Shown here: in pieces, positions 24,631 through 32,361 of the stretch | Layout: each line of letters opens with the position of its first letter | Numbering within the stretch: position 1 is the first letter of the stretch | Origin: Lachnospiraceae bacterium | GTDB taxonomy: Bacteria > Bacillota > Clostridia > Lachnospirales > Lachnospiraceae | Length of the DNA: 58,716 nucleotides | Direction: 5' to 3' | NCBI GenBank assembly: GCA_024684215.1 | Contig: JAIKXH010000029.1 | Coordinates: 1-58,716, forward strand | Notes under the pieces: generated by a model | Told to the model about the DNA's origin: nothing | What the model saw: only the letters and a program-made list of their open reading frames with translations | The model's database searches: none | Position numbers and translations under genes: made by a program

Positions 24631-25785
24631 ATGGACATAGGATATATGAATAGTAAAAAAATTGTTGTCCTGGGTTCTACCGGTTCTATCGGAACCCAGA
24701 CACTTGAAGTAGTTGACAGTTACAGTGACAGGCTGTCGGTTGTGGCTTTGGCTGCGGGAACAAATGCAGATTTGATGGAAAAGCAGGTAAGGAAGTATAA
24801 GCCCGCTATTGCTGTGATGTGGTCTGAAAGTGCCGCAAAATCCCTTAAGGAGAAAATTAAAGATACAGATACAAAGGTCCTTCAGGGGATGGACGGACTT
24901 ATAGAGGCTGCCACCTATGAAGAGGCCGACATTGTATTGACGGCAGTTGTGGGGATGATCGGTATTAAACCTACTATAGCTGCTATCGAGGCGGGAAAGG
25001 ACATCGCGCTTGCCAACAAGGAAACACTTGTGTGCGCGGGACATATAATTATGCCGCTTGCAGCAAAAAAAGGCGTAAAGATTTTGCCTGTAGACAGTGA
25101 ACATTCCGCTATTTTCCAGTCACTTAACGGAGAAAAGGAAAACAAGATTTCAAAAATTCTTCTTACAGCAAGTGGTGGTCCCTTTAGAGGTATGACCGCC
25201 GAGCAGTTAAAGACAAAGACAGTTGAGGATGCGCTAAAGCACCCAAACTGGTCTATGGGAAGAAAGATAACCATTGACTCTGCAAGCCTTGTAAATAAAG
25301 GCCTTGAAGTCATGGAGGCCGGATGGCTTTTTAATGTACCCGTTTCTAAAATACAGGTAGTTGTACATCCTCAGAGTATTTTGCATTCGGCGGTGGAATT
25401 TGAGGACGGAGCGGTTATAGGACAGATGGGAGTACCGGATATGAAGCTCCCTATTCAATATGCTCTTTTTTATCCTCAAAGGCTTCCTATGAACGAAAGA
25501 AAACTTGATCTTTTCAGCGTCTCAAGTATGACCTTTGAAAAGCCGGATCCTGAGGTGTTTAGAGGGCTTTCTTTAGCACTTAGAGCAGCTCATGAAGGCG
25601 GAAGTATGCCCACAGTTTTCAATGCCGCAAATGAGATCGCTGTGGCAGAGTTTCTTGATAAAAAGATCAGATTTCTCGATATATACGATAAAATCGAAAA
25701 GGCAATGGATGCTCATAAAGTGATAGCAAATCCTACCGTGGAGCAGATTTTGGAGGCGCAGGCGGAGGCTATGGAGATATGTTAA
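24631..25785 (+). CDS. dxr: 1-deoxy-D-xylulose-5-phosphate reductoisomerase
   Basis: A 384-residue DXR, the second step of the MEP isoprenoid pathway. The NADPH motif is V-L-G-S-T-G-S-I-G-T-Q near the start. Metal and substrate sites are LPVDSEHSAIFQSL, TASGGPFR, HPNWSMGRKITIDSASLVNKGLEV and HPQSILHSAVEF. ATG 24646 is a credible alternative start, giving M-N-S-K-K-I-V-V-L-G; neither has an ideal ribosome site. The last 7 nt overlap rseP. Supplies isoprenoids for the UppS product. Confidence 0.96.
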   Translation: MDIGYMNSKKIVVLGSTGSIGTQTLEVVDSYSDRLSVVALAAGTNADLMEKQVRKYKPAIAVMWSESAAKSLKEKIKDTDTKVLQGMDGLIEAATYEEADIVLTAVVGMIGIKPTIAAIEAGKDIALANKETLVCAGHIIMPLAAKKGVKILPVDSEHSAIFQSLNGEKENKISKILLTASGGPFRGMTAEQLKTKTVEDALKHPNWSMGRKITIDSASLVNKGLEVMEAGWLFNVPVSKIQVVVHPQSILHSAVEFEDGAVIGQMGVPDMKLPIQYALFYPQRLPMNERKLDLFSVSSMTFEKPDPEVFRGLSLALRAAHEGGSMPTVFNAANEIAVAEFLDKKIRFLDIYDKIEKAMDAHKVIANPTVEQILEAQAEAMEIC

Positions 25786-26882
25786 ATACACTTATAAGCG
25801 TACTTTGGTTTCTTTTAATATTTTCCGTTGTGGTGGTCTCTCATGAGTTCGGACATTTTATTATAGCTAGAGCAAACGGAATTCATGTTGTGGAGTTTTT
25901 TGTCGGCTTCGGCCCTACCATCATTCACTGGACAAAGGGGGGAACCAAATATTCCATAAAGCTGTTGCCTCTTGGCGGAGCATGTGTGTTCGAAGGTCTT
26001 GACGATGTAGAGGACGAGGAGAAGAAAGAAAACGGCAAGGAAGCCTTGCCGGATAATCCCGATGGAAAATACGGCGGATCGTTCCTTGAAGCGAATGTAT
26101 GGAAAAGGCTTGCAGTAACTGTAGCAGGGCCTGTATTTAATATAATCCTCGGCTTTATTATAGCTTTTATAATGGTAAATCTCATAGTCATCAGAGAACC
26201 TGTGGCGACTTCAGTTACTGAGGGCGGGGCTGCCCAGGCAGCAGGACTCTGCGACGGAGACGTTATAAAGTCTATGAACGGACAAAAGATATGCATATAT
26301 GAAGATATCATCTTATTCAATGCCTTGTATGATGGCGGAGATGTAGAACTTGTATATGAGAGAGACGGTGAAAATTACGAAACTGTTTTGACGCCTCAGT
26401 ACGACGAGACAGAGGGCAGATACCTTATAGGTATCATGAACTCTTCGTTTGTGGATTTAAAAGGTTTTGATGCCATTAAGTATACATGGTATGAAGTCAG
26501 ATATAATTTCAAGATGACTTATGGAAGTCTTCTTATGCTCATAAAGGGAAAGGTTAAATCGAGCGATGTTGCCGGCCCTGTGGGTATAGCCGTAAATGTG
26601 GTGGGAAAAACCTACGAAGAGACAAAAGAGTACGGATTTTCCACTGTGGTTGTAAATATGCTAAACATAGCACTTATGCTTACGATAAACTTAGGAGTTT
26701 TAAACATGCTTCCGATACCTGCGCTTGACGGCGGAAAGCTTATGTTTATACTTTTCGAGATCATCAGAGGAAAGCCTGTACCGAGGGATAAGGAAGCTCT
26801 TGTCAATTTTATCGGAGTGGTATTTTTCATAGTGCTGATAGTGCTCGTGTTCTTTAATGATATTAAAAACATATTTTTTTAA
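25779..26882 (+). CDS. rseP: RseP/RasP site-2 intramembrane metalloprotease
   Basis: A 367-residue S2P-family protease. H22-E23-F-G-H26 in the first helix is the zinc motif. A PDZ domain lies in the middle (about 135-220), and the last helices carry N-M-L-P-I-P-A-L-D-G-G-K with the third zinc ligand. It cuts transmembrane segments of anti-sigma factors and signal-peptide remnants. Residues about 75-105 form an acidic cytosolic insert. It overlaps dxr by 7 nt. proS or ispG often follows in Firmicutes; here a Ser/Thr kinase cluster ending in PrsW does. Confidence 0.94.
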   Translation: MLNTLISVLWFLLIFSVVVVSHEFGHFIIARANGIHVVEFFVGFGPTIIHWTKGGTKYSIKLLPLGGACVFEGLDDVEDEEKKENGKEALPDNPDGKYGGSFLEANVWKRLAVTVAGPVFNIILGFIIAFIMVNLIVIREPVATSVTEGGAAQAAGLCDGDVIKSMNGQKICIYEDIILFNALYDGGDVELVYERDGENYETVLTPQYDETEGRYLIGIMNSSFVDLKGFDAIKYTWYEVRYNFKMTYGSLLMLIKGKVKSSDVAGPVGIAVNVVGKTYEETKEYGFSTVVVNMLNIALMLTINLGVLNMLPIPALDGGKLMFILFEIIRGKPVPRDKEALVNFIGVVFFIVLIVLVFFNDIKNIFF

Positions 26883-26934
26883 CTCATTCGGGGCATAAGA
26901 TCCTAATGAGCGAGTTTTGACAAGGTAGATAAAA

Positions 26935-27780
26935 ATGGATTTTTCAGATAAATACGAATCTCCCGTTAAGGTGGGTGAGGGCAGCTTCGGTACCGTATAC
27001 AGATGCAAAAACAAAGAGGACGGAAGCTTTGCGGCCCTTAAAGTAATTAAAGATAAAAAAGTGTGGGAAGTCGAAAAGCAGATTTTGCAGGAAGCCGACC
27101 ATCCGCTTTTTCCAAGGTTTATAGATGCAGGAGAATCGGACGGAGAATACTACATTTTAATGGAGTACATCTTTGGCGATAATTTAAACGATGTGCTGGA
27201 CAGACGAAAAGGCATGGCACAGCGCGAGGCTATGAGATTGGCTCTTACTATAGCTGACGGTCTCGGCTGGCTTCAGACTAAAGAGCACCCTGTGATCTTT
27301 AGGGATTTAAAAGCCGAAAACATAGTTCTTACACCTGAAGGTGATGTCAGACTCCTTGATTTCGGGTCCGCTTGCGGTCTCTACGGTGAAAGGGATTCTA
27401 TCAGCGGCACCCCGGGATCGTCTGCTCCCGAGCAGTTTGAAGGAGAAGAGGGCCTTTCAGCCGATGTTTATGCCTTTGGCAGATTGTTTCATTACATGCT
27501 TACGGGCGTAAATCCTTTAAGTAAAGGTGCCGAGGATAAATTCCTCCCTCTCCGGGAATTTGATGAGGGCTTAAGCTATAGCTTAGAGCTCCTTATAGAG
27601 GACTGTACCGTAGAGGACAAAAGTGAGAGACTTCCTGATATGTACTGCGTTACAAAGCGTATGGTTGAAATTGCCGCCTGCACACCTGCATCATATAAAA
27701 AGATGGAAAAGCTCTCTGCCAAAAAGATTAAGGAGAGACTTGAAAGAGGGGTTATCTACGAAAAAAACATCAGGTTATAA
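26935..27780 (+). CDS. cytosolic Hanks-type Ser/Thr protein kinase
   Basis: A 281-residue stand-alone kinase. The glycine loop G14-E-G-S-F-G19-T-V-Y, lysine K36 (A-A-L-K), catalytic loop F-R-D124-L-K-A-E-N129, D142-F-G and S-A-P-E-Q are all present, so it should be active. HRD is replaced by FRD. The activation segment contains Ser and Thr (RDSISGTPGSS). There is no transmembrane helix and no PASTA domain, so it is not the usual PrkC that monitors the wall. It starts 52 nt after rseP and heads a cluster with a PP2C-like protein, two membrane proteins and PrsW. The AAGGT ribosome site is weak. Targets are unknown. Confidence 0.88.
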   Translation: MDFSDKYESPVKVGEGSFGTVYRCKNKEDGSFAALKVIKDKKVWEVEKQILQEADHPLFPRFIDAGESDGEYYILMEYIFGDNLNDVLDRRKGMAQREAMRLALTIADGLGWLQTKEHPVIFRDLKAENIVLTPEGDVRLLDFGSACGLYGERDSISGTPGSSAPEQFEGEEGLSADVYAFGRLFHYMLTGVNPLSKGAEDKFLPLREFDEGLSYSLELLIEDCTVEDKSERLPDMYCVTKRMVEIAACTPASYKKMEKLSAKKIKERLERGVIYEKNIRL

Positions 27781-27819
27781 AGCCTTTGAGGGCAGCTTTT
27801 AAGGCTTTGCGAGTCGCAA
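27781..27819 (+). other. inverted repeats after the kinase gene
   Basis: AGCCTT (27781-27786) pairs with AAGGCT (27801-27806). Directly after, TTGCGA-G-TCGCAA (27807-27819) is a perfect palindrome. A nine-T run occurs only further on at about 27848. This may be an attenuator or operator before the next gene. Confidence 0.35.
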
Positions 27820-27887
27820 GGCTAAATGTATTAAATTAATAGCTGTAATTTTTTTTTATTTATGACCGAAATACAGAGGGGGACAAA

Positions 27888-28481
27888 ATGAAATATATTA
27901 CTTCACAGCTTAGAAAAGGACACGGAGGGAGAGTCCTTTTTGAAAAGGCTATGATAAAGAAAAACGGATTATCCGTAATCCTGGGCTGCGTATGCCTTTT
28001 ATACGGCAGGGAAGAAGAGACTATACTCCTAAGTATGGGAGAATGGTTTCAAAACACAGTAGTTGAAGAGGTCATTTCAAATGGCATCTGCGGTGACGAA
28101 GATGAGTGTACCGCGCTTTTATGTAAGCTTTTTGATTCGCCGTTTATACAGGAAATGGGAGAAATTTCCGACGAAGGGAAAATAAGTTTTTTCTTAGGAG
28201 TCGGAGAATATGTTATACTGACAGGTAGAAACACTTTCGTATTTCAAAAGGAATTCGGCATACAAAAGTTTATACCTGCGAGTGCCTACGGTGAACAGGT
28301 TATTTCGCTTGCTGAAAACAGTGCCGTTTTTATAAAGGATGGAAATTTCATTGATCTGTCGGATTATGATATAAAAAAATGTTTATCGGAAGCGGACAGT
28401 GACGAGAGGGCGCTTAGAGCTCTTGATGAAATATCCGCAGATCAAACGGACGCAGGGCTTATTTTCGTTAAGGTTGTATGA
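27888..28481 (+). CDS. degenerate PP2C-like protein (tentative)
   Basis: A 197-residue soluble protein with no certain family. The C-terminal 60 residues follow the pattern of a PP2C phosphatase tail: F-I-K-D-G-N-F at the place of the C-S-D-G-L motif, then L-S-D-Y-D-I, an R-A-L-R-A-L helix, and a closing Q-T-D-A-G-L-I-F-V-K-V strand. The N-terminal half could be read as the start of the same fold. The metal-binding Asp residues of an active PP2C (D-G-M-G and the final D-N) are not preserved, so it would be a pseudophosphatase. Placement after a kinase fits. RBS GAGGGGG precedes ATG 27888. Assignment to PP2C is inference; the gene itself is secure. Confidence 0.7.
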   Translation: MKYITSQLRKGHGGRVLFEKAMIKKNGLSVILGCVCLLYGREEETILLSMGEWFQNTVVEEVISNGICGDEDECTALLCKLFDSPFIQEMGEISDEGKISFFLGVGEYVILTGRNTFVFQKEFGIQKFIPASAYGEQVISLAENSAVFIKDGNFIDLSDYDIKKCLSEADSDERALRALDEISADQTDAGLIFVKVV

Positions 28482-28555
28482 GAGTGCGCGATGTTTATAT
28501 GGCTTTATAAAGCTTAAGTTTACTTTGGTAATAGATATGAAAGGAGGACTACGAC

Positions 28556-28879
28556 ATGGTAGATGCTGATGAACGTGTAGAAAAGCTGCTTAAGGATTCC
28601 ATCAGAAACAAAGAGAAAGAACAGATAAAAAGATCGATAATCGGTGAGATTGTCGGGTCGGTTATTTGCATAGCACTATTTGTCGTGGTATGTGTTTATC
28701 TTCCGGGTATCGGAGGAGAGAATAAGGATGTTATCAATTTCCGTTTTGGCAGCCTTATTTTACAGTCTTCCTTTATGGGATATATTGTTTTAGGTGTCCT
28801 AGGAGTAATACTGGGGACGCTCTTAACATTTATGGGAATAAAGATTCATAAGATGAAAAAAATGGATGGAGACAATTGA
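28556..28879 (+). CDS. small two-helix membrane protein
   Basis: A 107-residue protein of unknown family. Residues 1-32 are charged and cytosolic-looking (VDADERVEKLLKDSIRNKEK). Helix 1 is at about 33-55, a short outside loop holds an N-F-R-F-G stretch, and helix 2 is at about 72-96 with a basic tail. AAAGGAGG sits before the ATG. Its stop overlaps the next start (TGATG). No HxxxCxxC zinc anti-sigma motif is present, so it is not a standard anti-sigma factor, though it has the size of a regulated-proteolysis substrate. Confidence 0.75.
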   Translation: MVDADERVEKLLKDSIRNKEKEQIKRSIIGEIVGSVICIALFVVVCVYLPGIGGENKDVINFRFGSLILQSSFMGYIVLGVLGVILGTLLTFMGIKIHKMKKMDGDN

Positions 28880-29667
28880 TGGATCTATCATTTTTGTCCG
28901 AAATCTTAACTACATTATTTCAGGTGGCTATGCTTTTATTTGTGTTCATAGCTTCGACAAGACTTACAGACGGAGAGAAGAAACTTCTTGCCGTCTTTTT
29001 TGCATTCGCATTTCTTAGCTGGCTATTAAGCGATTTATATTGGCTGGTTTACGATCTGCTAAGGCCGGGAACAAGGATGCCATTCGCAGCAAATGAAATC
29101 GGTGAATGCGCGCTATCTCTTTTGCTTGGCGCAGGACTATTGTCAATAAAAGAAGAAAAAGGTGCCCCGGCTGTAGGGGAAATCATCGTTGCCATTATAT
29201 ATATGGTATGTAATGTTTCGCTTTGGATAGCGTGGTCCGGAGAATGGATGCAGGATATACTGTGCGGACTAAGCATCGGAACGCTTTTGACTATCCTTGT
29301 TAGAGAGATAAAAAGAACAAACGCGATTACAAAACAGGAGAGAATAATTATTCTTATAGCCGGCTTTTGCAATATTATTATGCAGGCGTCCATGTTTTAT
29401 GTAAATAAAAAAGCCGTAAGATTTATCGACCTTAGTTGTTATATTATAATGCTTGCGGGAGTGGCGTATTTCTGGATAAGGAGCTTATTGGGGTTAATAA
29501 AAGGCAATTCTACCAAGAACACACTCTTAGTTACGGTGGCCGCCTTTGTATGGACGATTTTGTCCATGTATATGAGCACCGGAGTGTTCTATACCGTGAT
29601 GTTACTTAGTTTAACCTTAATTCTGCCGCTTATATATGTGGCTCTTAAAAGGGAGGTAAAGGCATGA
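28879..29667 (+). CDS. polytopic membrane protein of unknown family
   Basis: A 262-residue protein with about eight hydrophobic helices and few charged loops. No enzymatic motif is visible. The arrangement of eight short helices with R-L-T-D-G-E-K-K loops resembles YhhN-like or other small sensor membrane domains, but similarity is not convincing. ATG 28879 overlaps the preceding stop by one base and has GGAG at 28868-28871. Its own stop overlaps the PrsW start (ATGA). It therefore belongs to a tightly coupled three-gene set. Confidence 0.75.
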   Translation: MDLSFLSEILTTLFQVAMLLFVFIASTRLTDGEKKLLAVFFAFAFLSWLLSDLYWLVYDLLRPGTRMPFAANEIGECALSLLLGAGLLSIKEEKGAPAVGEIIVAIIYMVCNVSLWIAWSGEWMQDILCGLSIGTLLTILVREIKRTNAITKQERIIILIAGFCNIIMQASMFYVNKKAVRFIDLSCYIIMLAGVAYFWIRSLLGLIKGNSTKNTLLVTVAAFVWTILSMYMSTGVFYTVMLLSLTLILPLIYVALKREVKA

Positions 29668-30320
29668 TAAACGCTGAAAATATTCTTATATGCATAGCGG
29701 CTCCCTTATTGATATCGGTAATTTTTTTAAAGGGAAGTTCAAAAAGATTCGGAATTTCTTTCCTGATAGGAATGATCGTATGCCTATTGTCGGCTTATAT
29801 AGGCGGGTTTATAAATCTGGCTACCGGAATGGGAGTGGATGATACCGCTGTTTTTATATCACCGATTATAGAAGAGATAATGAAGTTTTTGCCATTGGCT
29901 TTTTATGTGATTATATTTAATCCGCAAGGAAGCAATATCCTTCAGGTGGCAATCGGCATCGGAGCCGGTTTTGCCACCTTCGAGAATTGCTGCTATATCA
30001 TCACATCGGGCGCGGAAAAGCTTCATTATGTACTTATAAGAGGATTGTCCGTGGGAGTAATGCATATTGTGTGCATACTTGCTCTTGCCCTGGCAATAGT
30101 CTTACTTAGAAGGGTAAATGCTCTTTCAACCCCGGGCCTGGCAGGGGGTTTGTCATTATCCATGATTTTCCACGCCCTCTACAATCTTTTGGTTTCTGAG
30201 CCCGGGCTGTCATCCTATGTAGGATATGCACTTCCGCTTTTAACTGCGATTGCTCTTTATGTTCCTTATGTTAAGAATAAAAAGATAATAGATGAGGATG
30301 ATAACGAAGAAAAGCTATAG
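29664..30320 (+). CDS. PrsW-family intramembrane metalloprotease
   Basis: A 218-residue protein with six to seven helices. The PrsW motifs are present: E70-E71-x2-K74 (IIEEIMKFLP), F106-E107-N108, H134 and H170-x3-N174 (FHALYN). In Bacillus subtilis PrsW makes the first cut in anti-sigma factor RsiW and RasP (an RseP homologue) the second. The start overlaps the upstream stop by 4 nt (ATGA), with GGGAGG at 29651-29656. Finding PrsW and RseP about 3 kb apart is unusual and suggests a shared pathway (inference). The transcript ends in a hairpin overlapping the stop codon. Confidence 0.85.
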   Translation: MINAENILICIAAPLLISVIFLKGSSKRFGISFLIGMIVCLLSAYIGGFINLATGMGVDDTAVFISPIIEEIMKFLPLAFYVIIFNPQGSNILQVAIGIGAGFATFENCCYIITSGAEKLHYVLIRGLSVGVMHIVCILALALAIVLLRRVNALSTPGLAGGLSLSMIFHALYNLLVSEPGLSSYVGYALPLLTAIALYVPYVKNKKIIDEDDNEEKL

Positions 30321-30346
30321 GATATTTAAATCCTATAGCTTTTTCG
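30311..30346. terminator. bidirectional terminator overlapping the prsW stop
   Basis: AAAGCTATAGGAT (30311-30323) and ATCCTATAGCTTT (30330-30342) form a perfect 13-bp stem followed by T-rich sequence. The left arm includes the PrsW stop codon. It also serves the converging GH120 gene. Confidence 0.9.
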
Positions 30347-30348
30347 TT

Positions 30349-32361
30349 TTACATGACGATATTTAGCTTAGCTTTTGATGCCTTTTCATCGACAAAGGGT
30401 CCCGGTATAGCTTCGAGGCCGCGGTGATTTCCGAAAAAGTCGCTGTCAAATGTGATGGCGGTTCCGTCAGGGCTTTCAAAGCGCTGCTCCGGCTCGAAAG
30501 CGCAGCCCAATATATCACTGGTGATTATGCCGTTTTTAAAATCTTTAAGGAGGCCAAACAGATTAGTCTTGATGCTGTAGACACCTTCTTTTTCTGTTAA
30601 CTCAAACGTTACTTTATCTTTTTTGTCTACAAACTTTACCTTTTCATGCTTGCATACATTTGCGCCGTTGAAATAAGCATTTCCCTTAACCCATACAGGT
30701 AAATGACCGAAGTGAGCACCGGCTAGGGCTCCCATATCAGGCATTTCTCCGGAAGCAAAGGGTTTAAACCACTCTTCGTAGGTAGGGAAAATGTCAAAGC
30801 ACTTTGTTCCGACCGCCATGTAATCGTTGTCTGCGGGAGTCTTTTTCTTGTCCTCTATTTTATAGTGCTGAAGGAAAATATTGTTGTAAATACGATCGTC
30901 ACCGTGGAGTATGGTCATAAATCCGGCAACCTCGGTCCTGTGACGGATGTGGTAAGGAGTATAACGGGGCTCCCTCTGACCGTTAACAACACTGTCCACT
31001 CCGGAATTTATAAGAGTAAATGCTCCGAGTATAAGGTTATTTACAACACCGATTCCTTCGCTGGGAATAGTGATTGAAACCTTTGAAAGTAAAAGGTTAT
31101 TGTCGATAAGTGTAGGACCGTGGCCGACTTCGATAAATACGTCGGTGTTAAACATAATTCCGTCCCTAATCTTTACGCCGTCGGGTCTGTGGTTGTTGTG
31201 CATGAAGTTCTGGGTAATTCTCGCACCCTGTGCTTCCCAGTCGAGCCATACACCTTCAATACAGTCGTGGATATGGTTTCTGCGGATCGTAACGTCGATA
31301 GCGGCATGAAGCTTGATACCCGCGGTTTCAGCGCCTGCAAGCTGCGAAGAGTTGCAGATGTGGTGGATATGGCAGTCCTCGATAGTTGAGAAGACTCCTC
31401 CCATACGTCCGACGATACCGGTCTGTTCGCAGTGGTGTACATTGCAGCGGCGGATGATATGGCTTCCGATGCGCTCCTTTGTCCATCCGTGATACTGTCC
31501 TCTGCAGACAGCGTCGCGCTCCATCTGAGTAGGGCTCTTAACGTATTTCTCGGTAAAGTACATATTGTTTTCGGGGTCATAATACTTTCCGAGGGAGATA
31601 CCGCAGCAACGGCTTCCGTAGATCTCGCAGTCCTCGATGATCCATCCCTTTGACCAATGAGGTCCGACCATACCGTCCTGGTATGCGGCGGGAGGAGCCC
31701 AGGTAGGAGCTGCCTTATTGATATTAAAGCCGCTAACGGTTATATAGTTTACATAATTCTTATCAGGCATGAAGCAGTTTCTTCTTACCGTAACTTCGAC
31801 ATTTTCCTTGTTGGGGTCAGCGCCTCTGAAGTTTGCGTAGAGAACGGTCTCGTCTCCGACCTGTTCTGTGTACCATTTAAACCTTGATTCTTCGGCATTC
31901 CATGCGTATTCGTCCGCTTCGGCTTTGATACACTCATCAAGGGAAGCAGTCTCGTACATAGCAAGGTTGTTTAAAAATACGCAACCTGTATGACGAATTC
32001 TTGGAGCAAAATACCAGTCTCCATAGACATATTCTTTGTATGGATTGTAGGAGCCGAAGATTGAGTTGTTGATCCTTGCGGTCCAAACGTCCTTTTTGTA
32101 CTTCTTCCAGGTCTTGACCTCTTCGGCACCTGTTATTACAGCCCCCAGGGGCTTTTCTGAGCGGTATGTGATCCTTGCATCCTCGAGCCCGGCATTTACA
32201 GGGCAGACATACTCTCTGTAAACTCCGGGAGCAACGATGACTTCATCCCCCGGCTTGGCAACCTTTGCCGCATCATTAATATGCTTGAAGGGCATTTCCT
32301 TGCTTCCGTTTCCCTCCTTGGAAGCGTTAATATCAACGTAAATAATCCTGTTTTTCTGCAT
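30349..32361 (-). CDS. GH120-type beta-xylosidase (right-handed beta-helix)
   Basis: A 670-residue protein resembling Thermoanaerobacterium XylC, the founder of glycoside hydrolase family 120, along most of its length. Shared blocks include P-G-D-x-V-I-V-x-x-G-V-Y-R-E, N-P-Y-K-E-x-V-x-G-D-W, W-S-K-G-W-I-I-E-D and G-I-K-L-H-A-A-I-D-V. The beta-helix carries the two expected catalytic carboxylates: nucleophile D374 in W-L-D-W-E-A-Q-G and acid/base E411 in D-V-F-I-E-V-G-H-G-P. No signal peptide is seen, so it acts in the cytosol on imported xylo-oligosaccharides. AAGGAGG precedes the start. It stands alone, with a LacI-like palindrome upstream. Confidence 0.85.
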   Translation of the reverse strand: MQKNRIIYVDINASKEGNGSKEMPFKHINDAAKVAKPGDEVIVAPGVYREYVCPVNAGLEDARITYRSEKPLGAVITGAEEVKTWKKYKKDVWTARINNSIFGSYNPYKEYVYGDWYFAPRIRHTGCVFLNNLAMYETASLDECIKAEADEYAWNAEESRFKWYTEQVGDETVLYANFRGADPNKENVEVTVRRNCFMPDKNYVNYITVSGFNINKAAPTWAPPAAYQDGMVGPHWSKGWIIEDCEIYGSRCCGISLGKYYDPENNMYFTEKYVKSPTQMERDAVCRGQYHGWTKERIGSHIIRRCNVHHCEQTGIVGRMGGVFSTIEDCHIHHICNSSQLAGAETAGIKLHAAIDVTIRRNHIHDCIEGVWLDWEAQGARITQNFMHNNHRPDGVKIRDGIMFNTDVFIEVGHGPTLIDNNLLLSKVSITIPSEGIGVVNNLILGAFTLINSGVDSVVNGQREPRYTPYHIRHRTEVAGFMTILHGDDRIYNNIFLQHYKIEDKKKTPADNDYMAVGTKCFDIFPTYEEWFKPFASGEMPDMGALAGAHFGHLPVWVKGNAYFNGANVCKHEKVKFVDKKDKVTFELTEKEGVYSIKTNLFGLLKDFKNGIITSDILGCAFEPEQRFESPDGTAITFDSDFFGNHRGLEAIPGPFVDEKASKAKLNIVM

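Follow-up and report, generated by a model that had tools for sequence, protein, structure and literature searches.

We examined a contig of 58,716 nucleotides from a Lachnospiraceae bacterium (GenBank assembly GCA_024684215.1, contig JAIKXH010000029.1), here called the window, and in particular six genes on its forward strand between positions 25779 and 30320. A sequence-only reading had located all six correctly and had joined them into a single signalling pathway; our analysis divides them into two separate units, rseP-KIN-partner and TM2a-TM8-PrsW. The first gene, rseP/rasP (25779 to 26882), encodes an M50 site-2 protease (Peptidase_M50, one PDZ match, TIGR00054) with a HEFGH motif visible in the translation, and is the housekeeping gene of the uppS-cdsA-dxr-rseP block, which is present in relatives. 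It is followed by KIN (26935 to 27780), a soluble Hanks-type Ser/Thr kinase of 281 amino acids with intact catalytic residues (Pkinase, E 7.8e-38), and by its partner PP2CL (27888 to 28481; 197 amino acids), which shows weak C-terminal similarity to PP2C phosphatases without conserved catalytic aspartates. The remaining three genes, here referred to as the cassette, comprise TM2a (28556 to 28879), with a short N-terminal part and two hydrophobic helices, probably an orphaned anti-sigma factor and a candidate substrate of PrsW, TM8 (28879 to 29667), a multi-helix membrane protein proposed as a sensor, and a gene for a PrsW-family intramembrane protease (29664 to 30320). The likely start of TM8 is the ATG at 28879; the open reading frame (ORF) list gave a TTG at 28876. 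The translational coupling of these three genes seen earlier was confirmed: the TM2a stop and the TM8 ATG overlap in TGATG (28877-28881), and the PrsW ATG and the TM8 stop overlap in ATGA (29664-29667).

Pfam matches agreed with the assignments already made for rseP, the kinase, and PrsW. The PrsW protein scored over the cut-off for PrsW-protease (PF13367; E 3.8e-15) and reached 25.2 bits against the NCBIfam equivalog NF033739, below its 225-bit cut-off. It keeps the EE, FEN, H, and HxxYN residues, and the conserved acidic and histidine residues, which we take to be catalytic, are invariant in six aligned rows. No Pfam or NCBIfam family over cut-off was found for PP2CL, TM2a, or TM8. TM2a, as described before, has 107 amino acids and two hydrophobic stretches when read by eye. 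TM8 had been counted as an eight-helix protein, but its AlphaFold2 model has nine helices (mean predicted local distance difference test [pLDDT] score, 95.7). Compared with the PDB, this model gave no match at E ≤0.001, the best being receptor and rhodopsin bundles at 0.062 (query TM-score, 0.18 to 0.43 in the 50 rows listed out of 472); the best E value against viral models was 0.12. Throughout this study, membrane helices and the labels "secreted" and "surface" derive from reading the sequences by eye and from domains found in two of the giant proteins described below.

To survey the cassette, named genomes were scanned with a PrsW alignment, and the best 80 of 130 confirmed loci were used, including contigs of five same-genus relatives. 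All counts refer to records and not to independent events, with near-duplicates among the 80 loci (e.g., L148 and L155), and the seeding from PrsW relatives of one subfamily means that cassettes lacking PrsW would be missed. Cassette genes were counted by six-frame profile search, and genes were called with a simple ORF caller plus profile hits. By their record titles, the loci are mostly ruminant or other-source assemblies labelled Lachnospiraceae, with some labelled Oscillospiraceae or Coriobacteriales and a few isolates. A gene for an extracytoplasmic function (ECF) sigma factor was found beside TM8 in 79 of the 80 loci; in 78 it lies on the same strand and at most 700 bases upstream, and in L193 it is divergent. 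In the one remaining locus, L189, the contig begins 127 bases ahead of TM8; TM8 and PrsW show no difference from their counterparts in L187, where the sigma gene is present. The one sigma protein scanned, from L141, matched Sigma70_r2 and r4_2 over cut-off.

A sample of 397 genomes of the family gave a TM8 match in 16, the window's own genome included. Of the 20 matches listed, 13 fall in twelve stretches and two represent the own copies; the other five, all weaker than E 1e-5, were left out. All twelve stretches carry the sigma gene, and five of them were already among the 80 loci. The sigma factor is the constant partner of the TM8-PrsW cassette, which is found mainly in ruminant-gut Lachnospiraceae and neighbours. 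This partner could not be seen from the window sequence, since the sigma gene is missing there. Three loci (L175, L176, and L180) hold two adjacent sigma/TM8/PrsW sets, partly divergent, that form separate tree branches.

Comparison with 30 other genomes of the same genus, many of them incomplete, showed TM8 in five, in each case with the sigma gene in front of the cassette. The window's own genome holds two copies. The second lies on contig C68 and consists of genes for an ECF sigma factor, TM8, PrsW, a further small membrane protein (TM2b), a trypsin-like protein, and a giant protein; no TM2a was found there by six-frame profile search. The trypsin and sigma domains were confirmed on the near relative L141. 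The giant ORF on C68 (L018, 51-3734; 1,227 amino acids) ends 51 bases from the contig end and aligns with residues 1-1,223 of a relative of 1,895 amino acids (94%); it is therefore shortened or wrong at the contig edge. L021 (2782-3561) encodes a single protein of 259 amino acids in which the trypsin-like protease is joined to the N-terminal part of a TM2b-like protein, a fusion which suggests that the two act together.

The site occupied by the cassette in the window is empty in three relatives (G029, G006, and G014), where the PP2CL-type partner gene and a convergent gene lie 11 to 24 bases apart. Their counterparts in the window are separated by 1.87 kb carrying the three cassette genes, and both flanks are kept; this speaks for an insertion (or for losses in the others) and against an assembly error. 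The convergent gene (30349-32361, reverse strand) encodes a protein of 670 amino acids that is conserved in the genus (1348 to 1519 bits in four relatives) and whose sequence resembles that of right-handed beta-helix proteins. A terminator-like inverted repeat with a T run (30309 to 30344, forward strand, also found on the other strand) closes the cassette. Its 15-pair stem is the longest among the sites listed; such sites number 10 in 10 kb, compared with 8.7 in shuffled sequence. Another relative, G009, carries at the same site a gene (L026, 7365-8693) for a protein of 442 amino acids that, judged from its sequence, resembles a multidrug and toxic compound extrusion (MATE)-type transporter, so the gap between the convergent genes may be an insertion hotspot. 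The cassette genes have a guanine-plus-cytosine content of 38-41%, as compared with 42% for the window as a whole; dxr-rseP and KIN lie at 43-45%, PP2CL at 40%, and the convergent gene at 47%. Composition thus leaves the origin of the cassette undecided.

KIN is distributed quite differently. It carries the catalytic lysine, RD aspartate, DxG aspartate, and APE typical of Hanks-type kinases, shows no obvious hydrophobic stretch by eye, and in nine aligned orthologues its lysine, glutamate, RD, DxG, and APE residues are invariant. Orthologues scoring above 200 bits are present in 29 of the 30 other same-genus genomes, the exception being G005 (72% complete). In 27 of these 29 genomes, KIN stands behind rseP or dxr, either immediately or with the partner gene in between; in the other two (G018 and G022) the contig ends before that position. 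A co-oriented partner gene adjoins KIN in 28 of the 29 and encodes 187 to 235 amino acids, apart from 157 in G006 and from G022, where 141 residues are visible before the contig end cuts the gene. In G014, KIN and the partner stand at the ends of two different contigs. The neighbours of KIN in G019, G024, G010, and G022 were read from all frames. An ORF of 426-450 amino acids follows downstream in 16 of the 29 genomes; in the four loci read (L066, L067, L068, and L083) it resembles trigger factor and leads on to clpP-like genes, an unusual setting for a kinase.

The sequence-only reading had proposed that phosphorylation by KIN, with PP2CL, gates cleavage of the small two-helix protein by PrsW and RseP in one pathway. 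This would fit the co-orientation of the genes and their short gaps in the window genome, as well as the intact catalytic residues of KIN, but the linkage of kinase and cassette was seen in this one genome only. Co-conservation of the kinase-to-PrsW genes, on which that proposal had itself been made to depend, was not found: against 29 of 30 same-genus genomes with KIN stand five with TM8, and in the four that have both, the two lie on different contigs. No cassette hit occurred in any of the KIN surroundings fetched from the 29 genomes, and KIN (>200 bits) was found in the fetched flanks of none of the 80 cassettes, two of which gave a weak kinase hit of 64 to 75 bits. We regard a gated pathway of this kind as hardly credible. 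The KIN-PP2CL pair is typical of the genus and, in our best reading, unrelated to the cassette beside it.

The PP2C-like tail described earlier for PP2CL stood up as a weak similarity. The partner is highly divergent across genomes; its profile aligned with PP2C proteins of the own and related genomes over 76 columns at the C terminus (hhalign probability, 43; E 2.5e-4), and an unrelated kinase profile used as a control gave a probability of 0.1 (E 0.58). The catalytic part of the likeness fell away: the metal-binding aspartates and the DGxGG and DN motifs of PP2C are not kept in 16 aligned rows of PP2CL, in which only F54 and G124 are invariant, as compared with D19, D39, D119, D193, and D232 in 16 rows of PP2C. 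The window protein gave no Pfam or NCBIfam match up to E 1, a Pfam scan of 16 members gave a single hit in one of them (E 0.024), and a profile search of the PDB gave three hits (best E 0.035). A single-sequence structure model reached a pLDDT of 40. PP2CL is possibly a degenerate PP2C, i.e., a pseudophosphatase.

TM2a and TM2b belong to one family (hhalign 99.8%). Both have about 30 to 35 N-terminal residues with a shared motif like DEQLxEIMKRAE, followed by two helices, read by eye, with a short loop between them; the first is hydrophobic, and the second is conserved (YGSLLL...GYVVxGVLAFxLG). Both proteins are encoded beside the cassette in 38 of the 80 loci, TM2b alone in 31, TM2a alone in 9, and neither in two. 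Their position next to an ECF sigma factor and their short N terminus lead us to infer that they are short membrane anti-sigma factors.

A recurrent promoter-like signal was found upstream of TM2b. Boxes like those of GTGAGTAA-N13-TGCAAYTAA, with a spacing of exactly 13, occur in 61 of 83 de-duplicated upstream regions; two regions have a different spacing, and 20 have no boxes. Across the 988,333 bases of the 80 loci, the motif was found 60 times before TM2b and 17 times elsewhere, and the reversed motif 29 times; two of the matches elsewhere (L177 and L184, at most one mismatch) lie just downstream of a cassette's PrsW gene. In the own genome, the single exact match stands before TM2b on C68; there are no matches with one or two mismatches and 13 with three, compared with 10 matches in all for the reversed motif. 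This single exact match is a more independent point than the counts of regions. No match with up to three mismatches was found on the window contig. A looser two-box pattern occurs upstream of the sigma gene in 5 of 83 regions, upstream of TM2b in 68, and in 10 of 83 shuffled TM2b regions; these counts give no sign of sigma autoregulation via the motif.

Behind PrsW, an ORF of at least 700 amino acids lies within 2.5 kb in 50 of the 66 loci with enough sequence for a call and is lacking in 16; a further 14 loci were too short. Four of these giant proteins were scanned: that of L163 (cut by the locus end) has isopeptide, beta-helix, and DUF7601 domains, that of L183 has collagen and FG-GAP domains, and no domain was found at E 0.001 in that of L141 or in that of L161, which is likewise truncated by its locus end. 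The frequent giant gene would also suit a role of PrsW and TM8 in releasing or exporting the giant protein instead of in sigma control, and a PrsW-dependent route of toxin export has been proposed (PMC3482391). Against this stand the constant sigma neighbour, the 16 loci without such an ORF, the promoter-like signal that separates TM2b and the giant gene from PrsW in the 61 regions, and the lack of a giant gene after the window cassette. We consider an export function very unlikely.

The window copy of the cassette is set apart by its missing sigma gene. A profile search of the entire window contig gave no sigma hit. In the own genome, the region-4 cut-off was passed on C68 and at two other places; the cassette-sigma profile scored 264 bits on C68 and 31 to 32 bits at the other two, and a further ECF-like gene on contig C159, with a different partner, scored 41 bits. 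The genome holds one sigma factor of the cassette type. In a tree of TM8 plus PrsW (85 rows, quick method, simple model), the window copy falls into a clade of eight rows with the same-genus cassettes and UBA1258 (Shimodaira-Hasegawa-like approximate likelihood ratio test, 95). As all other members of this clade have a sigma gene, it is simpler to assume that the window lineage lost it. A cassette sigma gene might still exist in the organism, in an assembly gap or moved elsewhere, as the assembly consists of 168 contigs and is 92% complete. However, the cassette is continuous with PP2CL, the 74-base gap between them leaves no room for the gene, the terminator-like repeat stands at the other end, and the sigma gene is adjacent in nearly all other loci (79 of 80), so we hold a hidden copy to be improbable. 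The best reading is that the window copy is an old paralogue or was transferred within the genus, and that its sigma gene was lost.

We then asked how far the window copy has diverged. Its TM8 outscores those of 53 of the 80 loci and its PrsW those of 37; PrsW keeps 93 of the 101 columns that are invariant in the five other rows, and the other rows likewise keep 93 of 94-101. The end branch of the window copy (0.45) compares with 0.31-0.55 in four siblings. TM2a outscores only 5 of the 47 loci with a TM2a hit. In an alignment of the window protein with 27 proteins called directly before TM8 (from 44 loci with TM2a above 60 bits), its N terminus is the least similar of the 28 (0.74 versus 1.41-2.80), as is its C-terminal part (2.07 versus 2.44-3.36), and its middle is ordinary. 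After allowing for the C-terminal part, the N terminus lies 3.2 residual standard deviations low, in a weak regression (r 0.32). This divergence of TM2a, together with the absence of the sigma gene and of the promoter motif, could mark a decaying, functionless leftover after sigma loss. Such decay appears unlikely: about 590 codons have stayed open and translationally coupled, TM8 and PrsW score like other members, the invariant PrsW columns are retained, and the end branch is an ordinary one. The window copy probably still cuts membrane substrates.

Taken together, the observed gene content and linkage, the promoter-like motif, the missing sigma gene, and the conserved PrsW residues make it probable in our view that TM2a-TM8-PrsW represents the membrane half of an ECF-sigma cassette, with the TM2 protein as anti-sigma factor, TM8 as sensor, PrsW as site-1 and RseP as site-2 protease, and that the window copy has lost its sigma gene. 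In the sigma-bearing cassettes, the sigma factor would be held by the short two-helix membrane proteins TM2a and/or TM2b. TM8 would sense an envelope or surface signal and license PrsW to cut the TM2 protein, after which the housekeeping RseP would complete the release. Free sigma factor would then read the one dedicated promoter before TM2b and the giant surface protein, and TM2b would provide negative feedback. The roles given earlier to the small two-helix protein as a substrate of PrsW and to RseP as the second-step protease both look plausible, going by gene position and by known families. In Bacillus, the serial action of PrsW and RasP on RsiW on which that reading drew has support in the literature, with PrsW cutting RsiW before RasP in B. 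subtilis (PMC10202637), and in Clostridioides difficile RasP acts on RsiV as second protease (PMC9044953).

Several observations weigh against this interpretation. The 30 to 35 residues before the first TM2 helix, counted by eye, are short for a class I anti-sigma domain, for which about 50 or more cytosolic residues are given, anti-sigma domains of fewer than 50 amino acids being set aside as possible class II (PMC7406223). The window TM2a matched no family over cut-off, and 25 TM2b members gave only scattered weak hits. A sensing role of TM8 is a guess, as no fold match was found. Of the two loci without a TM2 gene, L179 ends 88 bases after PrsW, but L184 does not. The erosion of TM2a extends beyond its N terminus, as its C-terminal part, too, diverges most among the 28. 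With a genome 92% complete, the assembly may lack a second sigma gene, and the motif pattern was derived from the same regions on which it was counted.

The orphan copy could have several fates. Perhaps it acts in trans on the C68 cassette, which we rank first; repurposing would come next, followed by a gene set on its way out. A more far-reaching version, which we regard as possible but doubtful, is that the sigma cassette combines a new family of short two-helix anti-sigma factors with a new sensor, TM8, and one giant surface protein per copy, the window copy having been kept as a stand-alone sensor-protease with in-trans control over the other cassette, possibly itself placed under the kinase pair next to which it landed; the sigma-bearing cassette would then be an undescribed signalling system. 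What looked like a kinase-protease cluster falls into two units that can be separated, and a rumen-bacterial ECF-sigma cassette comes to light that has a precise putative promoter and one main target, in most cases a giant protein. If the proposed mechanism is true, the cassette would be a one-sigma, one-surface-protein switch controlled by intramembrane proteolysis and would supply a candidate short anti-sigma family and a candidate membrane sensor, both of them new. The window copy would then be a natural sigma-gene deletion that shows what the membrane half does alone.

Open-licence PMC literature on PrsW, ECF sigma factors, and Lachnospiraceae, judged by titles and the opening of abstracts, yielded no paper on this cassette. 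Like the SigW-RsiW-PrsW-RasP system of B. subtilis, the cassette combines an ECF sigma factor, a membrane protein proposed to hold it, PrsW, and a second protease of the RseP/RasP type. Set against the B. subtilis gene layout and the size of RsiW, it stands out by PrsW next to sigma, by the additional TM8 and second TM2 protein, by TM2 proteins that combine two membrane helices with a very short N-terminal part, and by a sigma factor that seemingly has one private target. Ho and Ellermeier (2011) reportedly found that C. difficile requires PrsW for the expression of ECF sigma factors (CsfT/CsfU); a clostridial PrsW with an ECF sigma factor is common to both, but gene order, TM8, TM2b, and the giant protein set the cassette apart. 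With class II (CnrY-like) anti-sigma factors, the TM2 proteins would share a short sigma-binding part, a likeness of length, whereas they have two membrane helices and occur in Firmicutes. For the neighbouring unit, the nearest comparison is the PP2C-kinase gene pair on contig C95 of the own genome, in which a kinase gene likewise stands next to a phosphatase-like gene; the C95 kinase is presumably of the PASTA type, going by gene order and size, whereas KIN is short and soluble and PP2CL lacks the PP2C catalytic motifs. What is new about the cassette is that PrsW lies next to sigma, that TM8 is present, that the TM2 proteins come in pairs, and that a putative private promoter precedes TM2b and the giant protein.

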